Below, one piece after another: positions 315 to 57,313 of a stretch of 64,000 nt of DNA. The number at the start of each line of letters is the position of its first letter. The stretch's first letter is position 1. A program made the position numbers and the translations under genes. The DNA lies in assembly GCA_944326525.1 (NCBI GenBank), contig CALVEG010000001.1, positions 186,001-250,000 of the forward strand, read 5' to 3'. Source of the stretch: Candidatus Gastranaerophilales bacterium. Its GTDB lineage: Bacteria > Cyanobacteriota > Vampirovibrionia > Gastranaerophilales > Gastranaerophilaceae. A model generated the notes under the pieces. It had not been told where the DNA came from. It did no database searches and saw only the letters and a program-made list of their open reading frames with translations.

Positions 315-3300
315 TTATTCTTCTTCATTATCGTGCTCGTCTTCAATTTGAAAATCCGGAGCTCCAAACATTCCTTCAATTTCTTCCAAAATTGCAGAAG
401 GTTTTCTTGCTTGGTTTCTTTGAGCTACTGCACGTTTTCTTGCTTCACGTTCTTTTTCTTCATTTGCGTTTGTAAGGTGATGGAAGCCTGTACCTGCTGG
501 TATTAAACGTCCGATAATAACGTTTTCTTTCAAGCCTCTAAGCATATCCTTCTTACCTTCAACTGCAGCTTCTGTAAGAATTCTTGTTGTTTCTTGGAAT
601 GATGCTGCTGAAATGAAGCTTTCTGTGTTCAATGAAGCTTTTGTAATACCTAACAACATATATTCACAAGTTGCTGGAGTTTTTCCTTCTTCTTCAGCTT
701 GTTTGTTAATGTTTTCAAAGTGCTGAATTTCAACCAACTCACCTGGAAGAAGAGTTGTATCTCCTGCATCGACAACCTTAACTTTTTTCGTCATCTGGCG
801 AACAATAATTTCAACGTGTTTATCAGCAATTTCAACGCCCTGTGAACGATATACACGCTGAACTTCATCTACCAAATATTGTTGTGCAGCTTCCGGCCCG
901 CATAGTCTGATTACATCATGCGGGTTTAGAGGACCGCTTGTTAATGGTTGACCTTTTGTGATTTTTTGTTTGTCTTGAACGATTATATTTGCATCAATTG
1001 CATATTTGATTTCTGTTCTGCCGTTTTCTGTTGCTAAGTATAGTCTTGGCAGATCATCTTCTGTTTCAATTTCTGCAACACCGTCTGTTTCTGCAAGAAT
1101 TGCACAATCTTTCGGTTTACGACCTTCAAGAAGTTCTTCAACCCTAGGAAGACCTTGTACGATATCACCTGTTTTCTGTCTTTCAAATACTAATGTCGCT
1201 ATGATATCACCACGTAGAACAAGTGCTCCTGATTCTACTTGAAGCATTGTTCCTGGGCTGATTAAGTATGGACGTCCGTTTCTGATTTTTACTGTATCTT
1301 TATTTACAGAAACTATTTGACCTGAAATCGGTGATTTATCTCTGTTGTCAGAAAGAATTCCGTCTAATTTGATGAAATCTCCTTTCTTAACACTTGCTTT
1401 ACCGCTAATTTTAATGTCTGTTTCGTAGCTGTCGCAGATAATCAGCAATCTTCTTGCTTCTTCATTGTCATGTTTAATTGATGCTGTACCATCATTAATT
1501 GCAAGAACTTGTGTTTTTGCAACAGGTGTTTTGGGATCAATTACCTGACCGTCTTTTACTAACAATTCGGTCTGAAGTGATGACATTAGTTTAGAATTAC
1601 CTTCAAACTCACGACGTACGATTAGGTTTTCCAAAACGACGATTCTTAAATTGTTGTTTTCATCAAGTTCTACCATACCTTTAAGGTGTGACAAATATCC
1701 TTGCATTTGAAGAACAAGACTTGTTCTTGTAATTGTTGAACCGTCTAAGTTTCTAACTCTTGCGCCGTCTTTATATTGAAGTTGTGTTACAGGTACAATG
1801 TCAATCAAATCATCTGTTGTGTTAAATTTGATTGAAACATCTTTCTGTTGAACTTCAAGCACCTGAACAGGTCTTATAAGAATTTGTACTGGTTGATTTG
1901 CTATATTGTCTTCGTCAAGTGACAATGTTGTATCAAGTTCTTCATCCAAATCATCAATATCGATGTCATCATTTGAAGAATCCATAATAGTGATGATTGA
2001 ATTTTCTTTTGCCTTGATTCCGTCTGCAATAACAGTACCTTTCTTAACAACTTCACCTTCGTCAACTTTTAATTCTGAAATGCTTGAAAGTTGATGTACT
2101 TCGCCAGGTCTTATTGTAATCTCGTGTATAATATCATTGAATTCTTTGAATTCAACAATACCATCAATGTGGCAGTATACATCTTTTACAACTTCTGTAC
2201 CTGCGGTTACGAAAGTTCCGTTTTCAACCATCTTCAATGAACTGTCTTTTGAAATTTGGTGAATTTCTTCCGGTATGAATACTACAGATCCTGCTTTTGT
2301 TATGATTTGGTTTTCGTCAACTTCTACATCAACATATCTGATTTCACCTGAAGATGTTACAGCGCAATCATCATTAAGAAGTTCTGCTATAATCATTCCG
2401 TTTTCTACAGGTGTATCAACAGGAGCTTTAACGATGTATTTTTCGCCGGTTTTGTCTACTGTCCAAAGTTGTTCTTTCTTAGTTTGTTCGAATGTTGCAT
2501 TCTCAGGCTGTAAAGATGCTATAACGATTGTTAATTCTTTACCTTGTACAATCTTTTTGATGTTTTTGCCTTCAAATTTAACATCTTCAATAACTAAATC
2601 TTCTCCGAAACGAACTTCACCGCCGTGTTCAGATAGCATTAATGTTTCTGCTAGTTTTTCACCTTCTGAAACTTTTTGCTCATCTTTTACAAGTACTTTA
2701 GATCCGCCAGGAAGGTTGTATACATCCCCGCCTAATACCCAAATAATACCTTGTTTATTGGTTGTTCTGGAAATGTTACCTTGACGGTCTTTCTTTTCAT
2801 CTGCGATAAAGTCTTCATAAAGTACTTCACCTGAAAGATCTGATGTAATATCTTTTGTTGCTTTTTCTGTCAAACGTGAACCGTCTCCTGATGATACTGG
2901 TTCGTATGTTGCAAGTTTAAAGCCTTTTTCTACTTGCATTCCGTTTTCAAAGAATACGGTTGATCCTGCAGGTATATGGTATTTATCAGTGCGTTTTGCA
3001 CCTTTTATTTCGATATCGGCTTCATAATTTGCAACTTTTACAACATCCCCGTGACGTGTTCTTACTTCACGAGTTCTTACATTAGAAACAATTTCACCTG
3101 CTGATTTTGCTTCTATTGATTTCATTGCACCGGCACCTTTAAATACACCACCGGTGTGGAATGTTCTCATTGTAAGCTGTGTTCCAGGTTCACCGATTGA
3201 TTGTGCTGCTATAATACCGATTGCTTCTCCGATATCAACAAGTTTTTGAGTTGTCATTGCCCAACCGTAACATTTCTGGCAAATACCGTATTCTAGTCCG

Positions 3301-4181
3301 CAGGTTAAACCTGAACGAACTTTTAGCTGTTGTAGGTTCAAATGTGCTACTTTTCTGATATCGTCACGATTCATTGTAGTTCCTGATTTTACAAGAACTG
3401 TTCCATCTGTGTCTACGATATCTTCTGCGATTGTTCTGCCTAAAAGTCTGTCAATTAATGGCACAATTACGGCATCGCCATTTGTAATCGGTTTCATATT
3501 GATTGATTTTGTTGTGTGGCAGTCATCTGCTCTAATAATTACGTCTTGCGCAACGTCTACTAGACGTCTTGTTAAGTATCCTGAGTCAGCTGTTTTTAAT
3601 GCCGTATCTACAAGACCTTTACGTGCACCGTATGATGAAATGATGTATTCTGTAACGGATAAGCCTTCTTTAAAGTTTGCTTTAATCGGAAGGTCGATAA
3701 TCTGACCTTGTGCGTCTGCCATCAATCCTCTCATTCCGACTAGCTGTGATACCTGTGATAAGTTACCTCTCGCTCCGGAGAATGCCATCATATATACAGG
3801 GTTTAATTTATCAAAGTTCTCAACTACCTGCGCTGTTAACTTCTCTGTCGTTTCTGACCAAGTGTCAATAACCTTTGTATATCTTTCAACTTCGGTGATT
3901 TCACCCTTTAAATATCTGTTTGTTGATTTTTCAATTTCTTTTTCTGCTTCCTGTAAAAGTTCTTTCTTTACTGAAGGAACCTGCAAGTCTGAAATTGATA
4001 TTGTTGTACCTGATTTTGTTGCATATTTGTATCCTAAATTCTTCAGGCTGTTTGCAAGTTCTGCGGTTTTTGCTCCGCCAAACTCAAGATAAATTTGCGA
4101 CAGAAGGTTGTTTAATCCTTTTTTATCCATCTGTTTGTTAATATATTCAAGAGTTTTCTTTGAATTTGTGTATGTTTCCAT
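315..4181 (-). CDS. rpoC2: DNA-directed RNA polymerase subunit beta-prime, C-terminal part (RpoC2)
   Basis: C-terminal half of the split beta-prime subunit, 1288 residues. It starts with the region that follows the cyanobacterial split point ([20 protein letters not shown]). A zinc site is formed by C221, C294, C301 and C304. The bridge-helix region ([10 protein letters not shown], about 131-140) and the trigger-loop first helix ([13 protein letters not shown], 333-345) are intact. The polymerase core resumes only at [20 protein letters not shown] (about 1004-1023), so roughly 650 residues of beta-rich sandwich-barrel repeats interrupt the trigger loop. This is the giant SI3 insertion known from Cyanobacteria; the E. 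coli insert is about 190 residues. The ATG has an upstream AAAAAGGA. It lies 50 bases after rpoC1 in the same operon. The protein ends in an acidic tail. Confidence 0.98.
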
Positions 4182-4231
4182 TCTATATTTCCTTTTTCTT
4201 AATATAGTTTACATGTAATTTCGGGTTTGAA

Positions 4232-5941
4232 TTAAGCAAGTGCTTTTCTTACCGCTTCATTGAAGATTATTCTTCCTGCTGTTGTTTCTATTCTTCCGCC
4301 GTGTTCGTCACGAACTACGATTTTGTCGTGAAGTTCTATTACGCCAACTTCCAACGCTGATATTGCATCCTGGAAGTTATAGAAGTATCCTTTCGGATCT
4401 GATTCCGGATTCTTCAGGATTGTTAGATAATACATACCCAAGACCATATCCTGTGTCGGTGTAATTATCGGTTTACCTGTTGCAGGGGCTAGGATGTTAT
4501 TTGTTGCAAGCATTAACATTCTTGCTTCTGTTTGTGCTTCAATTGAAAGCGGTACGTGTACAGCCATCTGGTCACCGTCGAAGTCTGCGTTGAACGCTGT
4601 ACATACCAACGGGTGAAGCTGTATTGCACGACCTTCTACCAATTTCGGTTCAAATGCCTGAATACCTAATCTGTGAAGGGTTGGGGCACGGTTTAATAAT
4701 ACCGGATGTCCGTCAATTACTTCTTCTAAGATATCCCAAACAATTGCTTCTGAACGCTCAATTTTCTTTTTAGCTGATTTGATGTTTTGAACATATCCGC
4801 GTTCAATTAGTTTATTTACAACAAACGGTTTGAACAATTCGATTGCCATTTCTTTCGGTAAACCGCACTGATTTAAGCTCAATTGCGGACCTACTACGAT
4901 AACTGAACGGCCTGAGTAGTCAACACGTTTACCTAACAAGTTCTGACGGAAACGACCTTGTTTACCTTCAATGATGTTAGATAGTGATTTTAATGCTCTG
5001 TTGTTTGGACCAACAACAGTTCTTCCTCGTCTGCCGTTATCAATTAATGCGTCAACAGCTTCCTGAAGCATACGTTTTTCGTTTCTTACAATGATTTCAG
5101 GTGCGCCCATTTCCAACAATCTTTGCAAACGGTTGTTTCTGTTGATTACACGTCTGTATAAGTCGTTTAAATCTGATGTTGCAAAACGTCCGCCGTCTAA
5201 CTGTACCATCGGTCTTAAATCCGGCGGAGTTACTGGAAGTACATCCATTATCATCCAAGTCGGATCTGTTTCTGATGATATTAAACTATCTAATAATCTT
5301 AGACGTTTGATCAATTTGCTTTTCTTTTGTACTGAATTTACAGAACCAGCTAATTCTGTTCTGATTTCTTCTGCCAAATCTTTGGTGTTAATTTCTGACA
5401 AAAGTTCTTTTATTGCTTCGGCGCCAATTCCGACTTTTAATGTCGAATCTTCGTTTTCTGCCATATAATCTTCATATTCTTCTTCACCTAAAAGCTGAAG
5501 TTTTTTGAATTGGCTGTCACCCGGATCTAAAACTACATAATTGTTGAAGTAAATTACCTGTTCAAGATCTTTTAAAGTCATATCAAGAAGTAAACCTAAA
5601 TATGAAGGAATTCCTTTTAAAAACCAAATGTGAGAAACTGGTGCTGCTAATTTGATATGCCCCATTCTCTGACGTCTTACTTTTGAATCCGTAACTTCAA
5701 CACCGCAGCGTTCGCAGATAATACCTTTATGGCGTACTCTTTTGTACTTACCGCAATAGCATTCCCAGTCCTTTGATGGTCCAAAAATCCTTTCGCAGAA
5801 CAGACCGTCACGTTCAGGTTTTAATGTACGGTAGTTGATTGTTTCCGGTTTTGTAACTTCACCGTAGGACCATTTAAGAATCCTTTCCGGCGACGCTATA
5901 CTGATTCGTATATAGTCAAAATAATCAATACTTGTTGACAT
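4232..5941 (-). CDS. rpoC1: DNA-directed RNA polymerase subunit beta-prime, N-terminal part (RpoC1/gamma)
   Basis: N-terminal half of beta-prime, 569 residues. It carries the N-terminal zinc finger (C61, C63, C76, C79), the clamp and lid regions, and the universal catalytic motif NADFDGD at 451-457, whose three aspartates hold the active-site magnesium. The protein ends [17 protein letters not shown], which closely matches the C-terminal end of cyanobacterial RpoC1 (gamma subunit). The break from rpoC2 is therefore the ancestral cyanobacterial split and not a local frameshift. A separate stop codon, a 50-base spacer and a ribosome binding site for rpoC2 support two independent polypeptides. 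It lies about 90 bases downstream of rpoB. Confidence 0.98.
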
Positions 5942-12250: not shown

Positions 12251-12958
12251 TTACCATCGGATTTTACGCGGATAATTTTTGGGAACTTTCCAACCGTTGC
12301 GTGCAATTATTGCTGTGCAGTAGTTAGGGTTGTTTCCATCACAAGAATAGGTGCTTCCTGTATATAATGATTCATCTTTACCGTCCCAAGCGTGCATATA
12401 TGGTTCTACTCCTTTATTGTACAAATATTTCCAAAGGTCAGTATTTTCTATCGGGTAAAATTGAAATGCAAATGCGCATAAGCCAAAACTTTCTTTTTTG
12501 GGTAATTTTAGGCATTTTTCCGCATTGCTTGGAAAAAATATTATCTCGCGATTTTCATGAGCCTGAAAAGCAAACGCACTCCCGTCTGTTAATTCGTATA
12601 AATAACGTTTTTGTCCATTTCCGTCTGTAAATTCTTTTTTATACAGAATATTTAAATACGGTGCTAAATATAATTGGAAAGCTTGGTCTGTAGAATCAGC
12701 TTTGTTTATATAGTTTCCATCCTCATCTTTTTCTTCTTTTATCCAGTATGTCCAGCCTTCAAAATCTCCGTTTACATTTTTTGATAGTAATACTGCTTGA
12801 TTTATTATTGAGTAGAATTTTTTTAATCTGGTTTCTACAACGTGTGTTTGATATTTCTGAACTAAGGTTGGCAAGGTCATGGAAGCCACAAGACCTATAA
12901 TCCCTATAGTTATGAGAACTTCTGCCATAGTAAATCCGAAGGTGCTATTTCTGTTCAT
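12251..12958 (-). CDS. Type II/IV pseudopilin with prepilin cleavage motif
   Basis: 235 residues. The N-terminus has a class III (prepilin peptidase) signal: G8 followed by FTMAEVLITIGIIGLVASMT, with the conserved glutamate at +5 (E13) and a hydrophobic helix forming the pilin stalk. The C-terminal domain carries several cysteines and aromatic residues (CLKLPKKESFGLCAFAF). An AAGAGGAAG ribosome binding site precedes the ATG. Such proteins with a 'GFTMAEVLITIGIIG' start are processed by a PilD-type peptidase and assembled into pili or a type II secretion pseudopilus; neither peptidase nor assembly genes lie in this window. It converges on the secreted repeat cassette and diverges from the small XRE regulator. 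Confidence 0.9.
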   Translation of the reverse strand: MNRNSTFGFTMAEVLITIGIIGLVASMTLPTLVQKYQTHVVETRLKKFYSIINQAVLLSKNVNGDFEGWTYWIKEEKDEDGNYINKADSTDQAFQLYLAPYLNILYKKEFTDGNGQKRYLYELTDGSAFAFQAHENREIIFFPSNAEKCLKLPKKESFGLCAFAFQFYPIENTDLWKYLYNKGVEPYMHAWDGKDESLYTGSTYSCDGNNPNYCTAIIARNGWKVPKNYPRKIRW

Positions 12959-52105: not shown

Positions 52106-52134
52106 TTGAATTATTTTGGATAAAGTGTTATAAT
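52106..52134 (+). promoter_or_regulatory. Promoter of the glycine-rich pseudopilin cassette
   Basis: TTGAAT (52106-52111), a 17-base spacer and a perfect TATAAT (52129-52134). The first gene starts at 52170, giving a leader of about 29 bases with a GAGGA ribosome binding site. Confidence 0.7.
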
Positions 52135-52169
52135 AAAATATAAACAAATTTATATGAGGATTTAAGAGA

Positions 52170-53249
52170 ATGCGTCAAGGCGGTTCACCCGAAAGAATCA
52201 GACTTGGGAGTTTAATAGCAATACGTGAAGCAAAAATTGCCGGGTTTTCAATAGCAGAAATGTTGGTCGTTATGCTAATAATGTCATTTATTGTAATAGG
52301 CGTACCGGCAATACACTTCAAAAAAAACGAAGTAAAGACAAAACGCAGTTTGCATGGGCGTTTTGAGTGTTATTATAATGGCAATACGCTTATGTCGTAT
52401 TATGTAAATGAAGAAGGAGCAAGTGAGACGCCAGCCGTAGGCGGAGAAGGGTGTAAATTTACTCCACCCAAGAATGCAGTGTATTTATTGATACACGCTG
52501 TTGGCGGCGGTGGTGGTGGCTCCACTTTTACAGGCAGTAAAACAGTTAGCCCTAAAACCGAAAATAATACATACACCACAGCAAACGATTTTCCAGAATG
52601 GATGCGTGAGGTGCAAGGTTTTGGAAAATTGCCGCTTCCAACAACAATGCCTCCTAGTTATGTAGGTAAAAGGCAAGGAAGTTATGCAACAATCAGGTAT
52701 GGTCTTGCGGGTAAAGCAGGTCAAACGCAATCAATATTTTTCCCGAAATTAACAAACGTAGAAATAACGATGCAACCCGGAAAGGGTGGCGGTCTAGGCC
52801 AGCCGGGCGAGGCAACAATTGTAAAATTTAATGGAGAAGATGTCCCGATACTTAAGGCTGAAGGTGGAGCTGGAGGTACCGGTTCTGGAGATTATCCAAT
52901 GTGGCTTGATGGAAGAGGATCAATTTGTCAGGTTAAAGAGTTGGAAGGTCGAAAACAAAATTTGTCAGATTTCACAGATAGTATTGAGATGGATGAAAAT
53001 ACCGATATGGTATCACGAATAACCGATATACAAGCTGGAAGCGGTGGAGCAGGCGGATACGGTAATATAACAACAGATTATAATGTAACATATACAATAA
53101 GAGCGGGAGGTACTGGTACGGATGTTGATGTAAGTAATTACGTCAACAAAATTACTTGTGATGATCCTTCTCGTTGTGAGGATGGAACGCAGTCAGATAC
53201 ATGTGCAGCGCAAGCTGGTAAAAATGGAGCAGTGGTAATATTATGGTAA
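52170..53249 (+). CDS. Glycine-rich pseudopilin-like protein 1
   Basis: 359 residues. It has an unusually long 25-residue basic leader before a class III prepilin motif: G25 then FSIAEMLVVMLIMSFIVIG, with the conserved glutamate at +5 (E30). After the helix comes the shared block HGRFECYY, CKFTPPKNAVYLLIHAVGGG and then long glycine-rich stretches (GKGGGLGQPGE, EGGAGGTGSGD, GSGGAGGYG, GGTGTD). The end is KNGAVVILW. Glycine-rich loops ending in 'G-(A/V)-V-x-I-x-W' are familiar from tail-fibre and adhesin domains. A pilin-type stalk is thus joined to a glycine-rich, probably beta-helical or polyglycine II head. It overlaps the next gene by seven bases. Confidence 0.85.
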   Translation: MRQGGSPERIRLGSLIAIREAKIAGFSIAEMLVVMLIMSFIVIGVPAIHFKKNEVKTKRSLHGRFECYYNGNTLMSYYVNEEGASETPAVGGEGCKFTPPKNAVYLLIHAVGGGGGGSTFTGSKTVSPKTENNTYTTANDFPEWMREVQGFGKLPLPTTMPPSYVGKRQGSYATIRYGLAGKAGQTQSIFFPKLTNVEITMQPGKGGGLGQPGEATIVKFNGEDVPILKAEGGAGGTGSGDYPMWLDGRGSICQVKELEGRKQNLSDFTDSIEMDENTDMVSRITDIQAGSGGAGGYGNITTDYNVTYTIRAGGTGTDVDVSNYVNKITCDDPSRCEDGTQSDTCAAQAGKNGAVVILW

Positions 53250-54118
53250 AAAAGAATTTAAAGCCTGGTTTTTCATTGTTTGAAGCCTGTGTTGTAATGT
53301 TAATTGTCGGGATATTTGTAGCATTATGTGCGAATGCATACTCTAAAAGACATATTACATATCAAGAATCAGATGGTCACGGCCGATATGAATGTTATAA
53401 AAACGCTGCAGGAACTTTGATGCAGCGATATGTAGAAAATAACAACCCAAGAAATGTAACAGGTACTACTTGCGTATTTCGACCACCAAGATATGCAAAA
53501 TATCTTTTGTTAAATGCAATAGGTGGAGGATCAGCAGGGGATGCAGGCGAATTTAAGTCAGTATTTTACAGCTCATTGGATAAACCTATTACGGTAGAAC
53601 CGGGAAATGTGAATGGTGCAACAACAATAAAAATAGATGGAAGTATTATTTTGTCAGCAGAAGCAGGACGTGGCAGTATGAATGCAGCCAGTGTCGGAGC
53701 GGATGTAATTTCACAATGCAATTTTACATATAACAAGTTCAATTGTGGAACTCCAAGATGTGAACAAGATGGATTAAATTTATCAATTGCATTTTGTAAT
53801 GATAGTGGTTTTGTGACGAATAAAATACCGATTACGGACATAAAAAAATATAGAACATCTTATTCAGGTAATAAGCTTGTATATAGAGATTTATCAGATT
53901 TTACGGGACATGGAATCGCACCACAGGATGCTTTAGCATTACTGGATATTGCTGGTTCTTATGATTCTTTTTACACAATAGAGGTTACGTTTGATACTAC
54001 GTTGTCAAGTGTATCTCAAATGGAAAGTTATCTGGATTCCTTAGGAATTGTAGATGGCATAGCATCTGCACAACCGGGCAGACCAGGAAAGCCTGGTGCA
54101 GTTGTAATTATCTGGTAG
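53243..54118 (+). CDS. Glycine-rich pseudopilin-like protein 2
   Basis: 291 residues. Prepilin motif G9 then FSLFEACVVMLIVGIFVAL with glutamate at +5 (E14). It shares with its neighbours the post-helix block HGRYECYK, a cysteine and CVFRPPRYAKYLLLNAIGGG, and the C-terminal PGAVVIIW. The glycine-rich middle is much reduced compared with proteins 1 and 3; several cysteines (CNFTYNKFNCGTPRC) could form disulfides. The ATG lies in the stop region of gene 1 (ATGGTAA), so the two are co-translated. Confidence 0.85.
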   Translation: MVKKNLKPGFSLFEACVVMLIVGIFVALCANAYSKRHITYQESDGHGRYECYKNAAGTLMQRYVENNNPRNVTGTTCVFRPPRYAKYLLLNAIGGGSAGDAGEFKSVFYSSLDKPITVEPGNVNGATTIKIDGSIILSAEAGRGSMNAASVGADVISQCNFTYNKFNCGTPRCEQDGLNLSIAFCNDSGFVTNKIPITDIKKYRTSYSGNKLVYRDLSDFTGHGIAPQDALALLDIAGSYDSFYTIEVTFDTTLSSVSQMESYLDSLGIVDGIASAQPGRPGKPGAVVIIW

Positions 54119-54245
54119 TGCCGGATAATTTAATAATATAAAAATAAATACAATGTAATTTCCCAAAAAACGGATGTTAAAAATAACAAATGTTTTGAAT
54201 AGCTAAACAGGTAATAAGAACAATTATATATAAGGTGAACAGAGT

Positions 54246-57215
54246 ATGAATAAAAAAACTAGAATTTATCGCGGTTTTTCAATGGTTGAAATGATGTTAT
54301 TGCTGGTAATAGTGTCATTAATGCTGGCATCAGGGGTAACAGTAATTTCAAAGAAACACGTAAAAGTCCCACGTTTGGCATCTCACGGTGCATATATATG
54401 TTATATAAATAAGGCCGGCAATCTTCACCAAGAGAAATATCTTGGTATAGGTCTTGAAAATAAGATTATGGATGAAGATACAGACCAGTGCGTATTCGTA
54501 CCACCGGCAAGAGCTGCTTATTTACATATTCAAGCAACCGGCGGTGGCGGTGGCGGTGGTGCTTCCGGATATAAAGGTGGAACTCTGTTCAGATACCAAT
54601 CCAAAACGGAAGTTATTTCACCATTTGGTTGGACGGATGATATCCTAAAATTAAAGGGTATGACGTTAAATGAACTTCAAACCTATGGTGGAAAAGTATG
54701 GGCATATGCTGATGGTACCGGCGATTTTGGTGATGGCGGCGACGGCGGTGATGTTTATTACATCAAGCAGGATTGTGCAAACGGTGCCTGCCTTGTATAT
54801 AGAACTTGGATAAACAACGGTAACAAAGAAAGAATCTGTGATTGTGATTCACATACAGAGTATTCGAATGTAGTAAGAAAAACTTATCAATATTACTCAA
54901 CGAGATATAGCAGTAGTACATATACTTGTCGTAATAATAGGTACAGTCATGATTACTACTGTATAACTGATGAGACAGAATCATCTTATAAAAGTTATAG
55001 TAGTTCAGCCCCATCAGGCAGTGGTTGGTATTGTGACTCAACTAGTAATACATATTGTTATTCAAAATCAAGTTGTTCAAGTTATGCAAGTTATGGAAGT
55101 GATCCAAACAAATCTTTTACTTGTCTAACGACAAATAGTGATGGTGACTGTACTTATGGAAGATTAAATTATTGTAGTCGATATGAAAGAAAAACAGGTG
55201 AATGCGCATATTGTCGCTACGATGTAGTAAATACTAGTACATGTGAAAATGAAACACATGTTCCAGTTGATGCAACTTGTTCAGAATCGAACTATCAAAT
55301 GATTTCGGTAGATGCAACAATTACAGAGGCTCAGGAAGTTGCCCAAGATTCTCACTATAGAATAGAAACAACTACAGGACCATATTGGCAAGATGGCGAT
55401 GATGTCGAAGAAAGAGAAGTCTTAAGAGATACTGGTACTGCTCAAACTGTATGTAACTACGGTAGTAACCAAATATATACAGGAACAGGTATTTTTGGAT
55501 CATTTATGGCCGGAGAAATACCAGGTGTAACTTGTGACAATTCATCATTGAGTGCTGCATTTGGTGAACAAATGGTTAGTATGGGTACAAATACAACTTC
55601 TGTTCATTCAACAAAAACAGGTAAAGTATCTGAATTTTATGATGTGGAAGCCGGTGGAACAGATGAAAAATTCCCGATGTTTCTAAAAACAGAAAAGTTA
55701 GGTGGCAATTTATCTACAGCATTTGGTGATTCATGTGTGAATACATATAATGGTACTTGTGAAAGTAATTCTTATCATGGAGACTTTACAGATCCTTTTG
55801 GTGATAAGTATAAAGCGCAAGAGAATTTACCTACAAGTTGCAATATGAAAAGTAGTGTAACATACAAGGATGGTGATCAAGAGTGTGATGATGCTCAAAA
55901 TGATTCAGATTTCATCAAGTTTACATCAAGTACGTCATATTCTAGACCTTATTATAATACTGTTTATAAATGTCAATGTGTTGTAAATCATTCAGTAGGG
56001 GATGGTTGTGTATACGACTACACTAAAGTTACCGAAAAGAGTGATCCTCAAAAAGAATTTACTTGCTCGTATATACCGGATGTAGTAAGCGGAGGTACAG
56101 GCGGTAAAGGTAAGTTCTGTGCATTAAATGATATTACAGTAACCACCGGTTTGAACTACAAAGGTGAGTCAAGTATTATTGCAGGTATAAGAGGAAGTGA
56201 CAGGCTTTTAACTGGAGCTGGTTACAAACCTTTATATACAAAAAATGAGTGGGAACATCAAGATGCTGGTTATGCAGAAAATGGAACACCATCACAAGGT
56301 TTTGCAGAAATCAGAATCACTGGTGGTGGTGGCGATTCTTGGTGTGAACTGCATAAAGAGAAAGTTCCAGGTAGAGGTCAAGGTGCCAGAAGAGAAACTA
56401 CAGGTTCTGCTATTCCGGTTGAAGGTAAAGATGCTCCGTATGCCGGTGGTAATGAAGCTACTGTAGGAAGTATTAATGGTGCTGGGTATTCTGAAAATGC
56501 AGGCAAAAAATGCGGAGATAATCACGTTGGTTTTTGTTTGAAAGCTTCTGGTAATAGCAATGCAATAAGAGAAAACGGTAAATATACATACAATTACACT
56601 TGGAATACAAACTATCTTCAGTATGGAGAAGGCGGAGATGCCGGTGAATATAGAGTTAAAATTATAAGAGCCTTCAAAGATAAGGATATTGAAATAACTT
56701 TAGGTCGAGGCGGAGCCGCAGGTTCTCATCCTCCGGATGGTTCAACAGACCGTACAATTTGTAACGGACAAGATGGCGGTGATACAATTGTTGGCGATAT
56801 TCTAACCGCAAAAGGCGGTAAAGGTGGCGAAGGTTGTATTCCGACAGTTACCGAACAGTTACCTTATTGGTATGAGGGTGGAGTATTCCGCGCTGAACAG
56901 CCAGGTACGAACGGTAAACTTGCAAGTGTTACAAATTATAAGTCAAATATTCTAAACCTTGTTTTGCCGGTTGATAATACTGTATTAGGAGCTTGGATTG
57001 CAGCATCAGGTGCCGGTGGTAACGGTGGCGGCTCTTTCAATAATTGCTGGGCGAGTGAATGGGTTCGTACATTCGAAGGTAAGCCAATTACAGAAAGATA
57101 CGGTCCACTTGATGCTAATCAGCTTGAAACACAAGGCTGCAGACAAGGCACTTACTGGGGACATACTCCGGATCCTGAAGCTGGAACTTCCGGTGTAGTA
57201 CTTATAAAATGGTAA
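54246..57215 (+). CDS. Giant cysteine- and glycine-rich pseudopilin-like protein 3
   Basis: 989 residues, far larger than any normal pilin. Prepilin motif G10 then FSMVEMMLLLVIVSLMLASG, glutamate at +5 (E15). The family block follows: HGAYICYI, CVFVPPARAAYLHIQATGGG. Residues 176-344 are a Tyr/Ser/Cys-rich region with 16 cysteines (for example GWYCDSTSNTYCYSKSSC); the whole protein has 36. Further glycine-rich segments (TGGGGDSWC, YGEGGDAGEY, LGRGGAAGSHPPDG, AKGGKGGEG, GAGGNGGG) lead to the terminal GVVLIKW. It is probably an exported, disulfide-stabilised adhesin or pilus-tip protein. The ribosome binding site is AAGGTGA. It is third in the cassette, 127 bases after gene 2. Confidence 0.85.
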   Translation: MNKKTRIYRGFSMVEMMLLLVIVSLMLASGVTVISKKHVKVPRLASHGAYICYINKAGNLHQEKYLGIGLENKIMDEDTDQCVFVPPARAAYLHIQATGGGGGGGASGYKGGTLFRYQSKTEVISPFGWTDDILKLKGMTLNELQTYGGKVWAYADGTGDFGDGGDGGDVYYIKQDCANGACLVYRTWINNGNKERICDCDSHTEYSNVVRKTYQYYSTRYSSSTYTCRNNRYSHDYYCITDETESSYKSYSSSAPSGSGWYCDSTSNTYCYSKSSCSSYASYGSDPNKSFTCLTTNSDGDCTYGRLNYCSRYERKTGECAYCRYDVVNTSTCENETHVPVDATCSESNYQMISVDATITEAQEVAQDSHYRIETTTGPYWQDGDDVEEREVLRDTGTAQTVCNYGSNQIYTGTGIFGSFMAGEIPGVTCDNSSLSAAFGEQMVSMGTNTTSVHSTKTGKVSEFYDVEAGGTDEKFPMFLKTEKLGGNLSTAFGDSCVNTYNGTCESNSYHGDFTDPFGDKYKAQENLPTSCNMKSSVTYKDGDQECDDAQNDSDFIKFTSSTSYSRPYYNTVYKCQCVVNHSVGDGCVYDYTKVTEKSDPQKEFTCSYIPDVVSGGTGGKGKFCALNDITVTTGLNYKGESSIIAGIRGSDRLLTGAGYKPLYTKNEWEHQDAGYAENGTPSQGFAEIRITGGGGDSWCELHKEKVPGRGQGARRETTGSAIPVEGKDAPYAGGNEATVGSINGAGYSENAGKKCGDNHVGFCLKASGNSNAIRENGKYTYNYTWNTNYLQYGEGGDAGEYRVKIIRAFKDKDIEITLGRGGAAGSHPPDGSTDRTICNGQDGGDTIVGDILTAKGGKGGEGCIPTVTEQLPYWYEGGVFRAEQPGTNGKLASVTNYKSNILNLVLPVDNTVLGAWIAASGAGGNGGGSFNNCWASEWVRTFEGKPITERYGPLDANQLETQGCRQGTYWGHTPDPEAGTSGVVLIKW

Positions 57216-57276
57216 ATTTGCAGACCGGCTTTATGCCGGTTCTGTTTATATAAAAGGCTATATTGAGCAAAAGCGG

Positions 57277-57313
57277 GCTTCTCCTGTAAATATATGGAGA
57301 AGCTTGTTTTTTG
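57277..57313 (+). terminator. Terminator of the pseudopilin cassette
   Basis: GCTTCTCC, 11-base loop, GGAGAAGC followed by TTGTTTTTTG. A smaller stem ACCGGC/GCCGGT lies just upstream near 57225-57241. Confidence 0.7.

Follow-up and report, generated by a model that had tools for sequence, protein, structure and literature searches.

What are three adjacent genes that each begin like a pilin gene and encode proteins of 359, 291 and 989 residues? The genes, here called A (52170..53249), B (53243..54118) and C (54246..57215), lie on the + strand of the window, the whole stretch of 64,000 nucleotides that was analysed, in a Candidatus Gastranaerophilales genome of 1.95 Mb in 27 contigs; most of the near relatives that carry a name are Gastranaerophilales MAGs. 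A sequence-only reading of this DNA had described them as tandem genes that share a prepilin N-terminus and a two-cysteine block, and open reading frames (ORFs), pairwise BLASTP and invariant motifs agree with that description. As also stated there, genes A and B overlap by seven bases (ATGGTAA), and the identical overlap recurs in many relatives. The 'clear' promoter and the terminator of that reading fare less well. A promoter-like site (TTGAAT-17-TATAAT, 52106..52134, + strand), which matches 10 of 12 consensus positions and has TG ahead of the second hexamer, precedes gene A, and a terminator-like hairpin (57223..57241, + strand) follows directly after the stop of gene C; however, such sites are about equally common in shuffled sequence (27 promoter-like sites observed in the region against 19.6 expected, and 2 hairpins against 3.3), so that position is their main support.

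Two other regions of the window are recorded here. A further pilin of ordinary size (235 aa, GFTMAEVL) is encoded at 12251-12958 on the - strand. Also on the - strand, an ORF of 1288 aa (318-4181) matches only the C-terminal domains among those of RNA polymerase beta' and additionally has a Peptidase_M23 match; it adjoins a 569-aa ORF (4232-5941), and the pair (318-5941) looks like the cyanobacterial two-gene split of beta'.

The first 90 or so residues of A, B and C are homologous (34-40% identity, E 4e-9 to 1e-16 in pairwise BLASTP) and share the invariant elements GFSxxE, HG, CY, CxFxPP, A, YL and GGG. In gene A this conserved block (52242..52520) comprises G25, the predicted -1 residue of cleavage, followed by GFSxxE, the helix, HG, CY, CxFxPP and GGGG; the corresponding blocks of B and C lie at 53267..53539 and 54273..54557. 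Of 101 relatives, 100 have the prepilin motif with Glu5; the one left over is an ORF call without its N-terminus. Those 100 have G or A at -1, an aromatic residue at +1, a hydrophobic stretch and leaders that are mostly positively charged. The N_methyl model is sub-threshold by hmmscan, A scores slightly above its cut-off in the genome scan, and every scanned A and B orthologue matches it.

Beyond the block lies a core segment, identified by core comparison, at 52698..52883 in A, 53525..53677 in B, where it adjoins the N-terminal block, and 56622..56834 in C. A Gly-rich core segment after the block was found in 86 of 101 relatives and in none of the reversed controls, and across the family the core is mostly followed by another 115-190 residues. 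The common C-terminus GxVxIxW noted earlier holds up well: the terminal strand is GAVVILW in A (53226..53246) and GVVLIKW in C (57192..57212), and the terminal W occurs in 98 of 101 relatives, more than chance would give. A glycine-rich body had been ascribed to all three proteins. The label suits A (14.8% glycine over the whole protein) and parts of C (12.8%) but hardly B (10.0%), and C owes its length to an internal insertion instead.

The giant size of C is, from the core comparison, attributable to one insertion at a site common to all three cores. Block and core are separated by about 0 residues in B, by 59 in A (insertion at 52521..52697) and by 688 in C (54558..56621), and the family medians are 1, 65 and 562 residues, respectively. 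The insertion carries 30 of the 36 cysteines of C, and it has no Pfam match. It is also the fast-evolving part of the protein. When C is compared with the nearest relative, identity is 96.4% over the core (residues 1-105 and 788-989), with a dN of 0.023 and a dS of 0.78. The fastest part of the insertion (residues 175-620, 54768..56105) is 50% identical, with a dN of 0.49 and a dS of 1.2, values to be read with an uncertain alignment and a dS near saturation. In 60-residue windows, identity falls to 29-38% over residues 181-360 and 541-600 and reaches 93% over residues 421-480. As dS is similar in core and insertion, the insertion is unlikely to have been replaced recently by sequence of distant origin. 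Given the uncertain alignment and the near-saturated dS, acceleration is claimed here and positive selection is not proven; with dN/dS below 1 over the insertion, the fast change may reflect relaxed constraint. The genome holds no second copy of the insertion DNA of the kind expected for a diversity-generating retroelement or a silent cassette, in a search that a short or very diverged template would escape.

The A-B-C family is real, conserved and restricted to one lineage. It is present in 14 of 14 genomes of the same genus. The profile of the N-terminal block (A2) matches in 183 of 286 genomes of the order Gastranaerophilales, a tally in which matches near 1e-5 may reflect the pilin helix alone, so that reliance is placed on those of about 1e-12 or better. 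These strong matches span 13 genera, all from one Gastranaerophilales family among the genomes sampled. A single genome of another family matches at 6.5e-10, and in a phylum-wide sample of 292 genomes all matches fall inside the same one family. The uncharacterised family of pilin-type proteins with non-pilin heads that had been proposed is supported, and the profile searches show it to be lineage-restricted, with the reservation that the weak matches may be due to the helix; the family is not described in any paper found by a literature search.

Across 38 loci, 28 triads in the fixed order A-B-C were counted. On a tree of the N-terminal block, the labels A, B and C require 5, 5 and 6 changes, where shuffles require about 25, which indicates that the three are old paralogues whose order was kept across seven genera; the A genes of one genus and the irregular locus L118 depart from this. 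These triads and the three old paralogous lineages make the minor-pilin complex raised as a possibility in the sequence-only reading likely. Some variation surrounds this pattern. Several genomes of the same genus have C at another location or duplicated, and locus L114 has two triads back to back, from a genus in which B is only 159-164 aa long (L114:4386-4865 and L114:8618-9112) and retains the block and the terminal W. Single-gene relatives also occur outside triads (L111:4922-6613, L112:3617-5254 and L113:4603-6354). An extra pilin gene lies near 19 of the 38 loci, in several of them less than 50 bases from C, which it follows directly in other genera. Its orthologue in this genome (L129:3356-3961, equivalent to G000:C1:251355-251960) is on the - strand, beyond the end of the window and about 8 kb downstream.

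The head has known relatives, namely Gly_rich_2 (PF21722) and Gly-rich proteins of phages and giant viruses. Residues 174-316 of A match Gly_rich_2 below threshold (21.6 bits against a cut-off of 24.3); a six-frame search of the genome at E 0.01 gave no match, consistent with that score. Relatives exceed the cut-off, with up to 48.8 bits, and several C orthologues match, one of them at 2.5e-9; no match was found among the scanned B orthologues. In the single-gene relatives L111-L113 the Gly_rich_2 domain is above threshold and nearly complete. The core of C differs from PF21722 in being interrupted by the insertion of about 690 residues. Of 9 C orthologues, 8 match the tail-fibre family phrog_863, the best of them at 8e-15, and the match in C itself covers residues 788-866.

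Structure prediction was informative for A alone. Its AlphaFold model, built with eight orthologues, has a mean pLDDT of 79.8; the head lies mostly at 76-96, and the N-terminus is poor except for a helix at residues 28-47; C, predicted from nine sequences, reached a pLDDT of 39, and that model was used in no search. With the A model, Foldseek returned 57 viral model matches at E<=1e-3 with probability near 1 but low TM-scores, 0.18-0.32 by query length in the top 50; most of them are proteins annotated as Gly-rich domain, minor tail or tail fibre. No solved structure matched the A model at E<=1e-3, and searches of solved structures with C and with profiles of A and C gave nothing or chance matches. 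As predicted, then, the head of A would resemble viral Gly-rich and phage tail proteins.

The genome encodes one PilB-type ATPase, two PilT-type ATPases, one secretin near PilB and one prepilin peptidase. It has 14 N_methyl matches, A, B and C included, and ten other pilins that were scanned all fall short of the GspH-K and ComG cut-offs. No match to the PilY1/PilC tip adhesin model PF05567 was obtained in this genome, a model that gave no match in the control genomes either. Given the two PilT-type ATPases and the secretin beside PilB, the 'pseudopilin' first suggested is not favoured over 'pilin'.

A, B and C are probably modular minor type IV pilins that form a tip complex displaying an adhesin, with cleavage, tip location and binding all inferred. 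The prepilin peptidase would cut before the F of GFS, and the subunits would then join the type IV pilus of this genome through their helices. Heads so large would hardly pack along the shaft, which suggests placement at the tip. The Gly-rich core could serve as a stem like that of phage tail-fibre tips, and C may expose its variable insertion as a ligand-binding head; PilT retraction would then pull on the bound target. A narrower version of this proposal is plausible but tentative: the tip would be specific to Gastranaerophilales and made of three pilins homologous to one another, whose Gly-rich stems resemble those of phage fibres and which stand in for the minor pilins usual at a tip. Inserted in the stem of C would be a cysteine-rich head that binds receptors and diversifies rapidly.

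The strongest rival is that A, B and C are minor pilins of a DNA-uptake pilus, which start the filament and capture DNA for ComEC, the C insertion binding DNA or a partner rather than a surface. ComEC is encoded, and the genome has a single PilB-type system and a single secretin; ComEC, however, is uninformative on A-B-C. The three proteins do match ComG models, as they do models of H, I, J and K, but at the level of the helix and far below cut-off, and DNA binding would not require an insertion that varies fast. This reading is judged rather unlikely. Lower still is the probability that they are pseudopilins resembling those of type II secretion (T2SS), forming a complex that recognises exoproteins for secretion with the large C head as substrate receptor. 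The known HIJK complex does recognise secreted effectors (PMC10191384), and GspK owes its larger size to an inserted domain (PMC8179133), but the two PilT-type ATPases and the secretin beside PilB point to retractable pili, and none of the three proteins matches GspH-K above cut-off.

Equally improbable is the view that the pilin-like helix is only a signal and that the proteins form no filament, being surface proteins that are either anchored in the inner membrane or set free, with a C insertion that drifts under relaxed constraint. The very large heads, the Glu5 kept by all three proteins, the lack of a recognisable cap and the dN/dS below 1 of the insertion all count in its favour. Yet conservation of Glu5 and of the signal in all but one of the relatives is what assembly would predict, and the fixed gene order and the old three-way split suggest a complex. 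A prophage or phage-derived tail module with acquired pilin signals is very improbable. The heads do match Gly-rich phage tail families best, but the neighbours are chromosomal housekeeping genes and the pattern across genera is vertical; such an origin is largely refuted, as A and C have no match in phages (tblastn) or viral contigs.

For A, B and C as tip-forming minor pilins, the closest precedents are known modular pilins, for which a count made in 2021 gave 264 architectures (PMC8179133); the three proteins are best classed as a novel form of modular pilin. PilB and PilC of Streptococcus sanguinis likewise join a prepilin N-terminus to a large non-pilin module and are co-encoded as minor pilins (PMC8179133, PMC9934059), and a published model has PilA/B/C form a tip complex that bears adhesive modules (PMC9934059), the same role as is proposed for A-B-C. 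Unlike the S. sanguinis proteins, A, B and C have a homologous Gly-rich core in common, and what C has in addition lies inside that core instead of being joined by a linker after the pilin. The HIJK tip complex (GspH/I/J/K, PilHIJK) is similar in being a small set of minor pilins with one enlarged member, the inserted domain of GspK being the counterpart. Known tip complexes are capped by a subunit without Glu5 (PMC10191384), and PilA of S. sanguinis also lacks this residue. The presence of Glu5 in all three proteins departs from these caps; the neighbouring pilin keeps Glu5 as well, and no subunit without it was found in the family or in that pilin among the 101 relatives.

On the phage side, the Gly-rich domain of the Pam3 tail fibre consists of a conserved stem and a variable receptor-binding tip (PMC9608196), and S16 gp38 is similar (PMC6851490). 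By description, Pam3 gp24 and S16 gp38 resemble A-B-C in having a beta domain, Gly-rich stretches and a stem with variable tips. The Gly-rich domain of Pam3 gp24 contains 39% Gly, in contrast to 10-15% overall in A-B-C, which are moreover carried on a pilin helix.

For the mode of attachment of these uncultured gut relatives of cyanobacteria, the papers located note only the presence of pilus genes (PMC5877343). A-B-C offers a specific candidate for the part that adheres: its scaffold is stable, there is a single insertion site and the head changes fast. The family suggests that one kind of Gly-rich stem may serve both bacterial pili and phage tail fibres, and this three-subunit set bears on how a tip complex may form without a cap that lacks Glu5.
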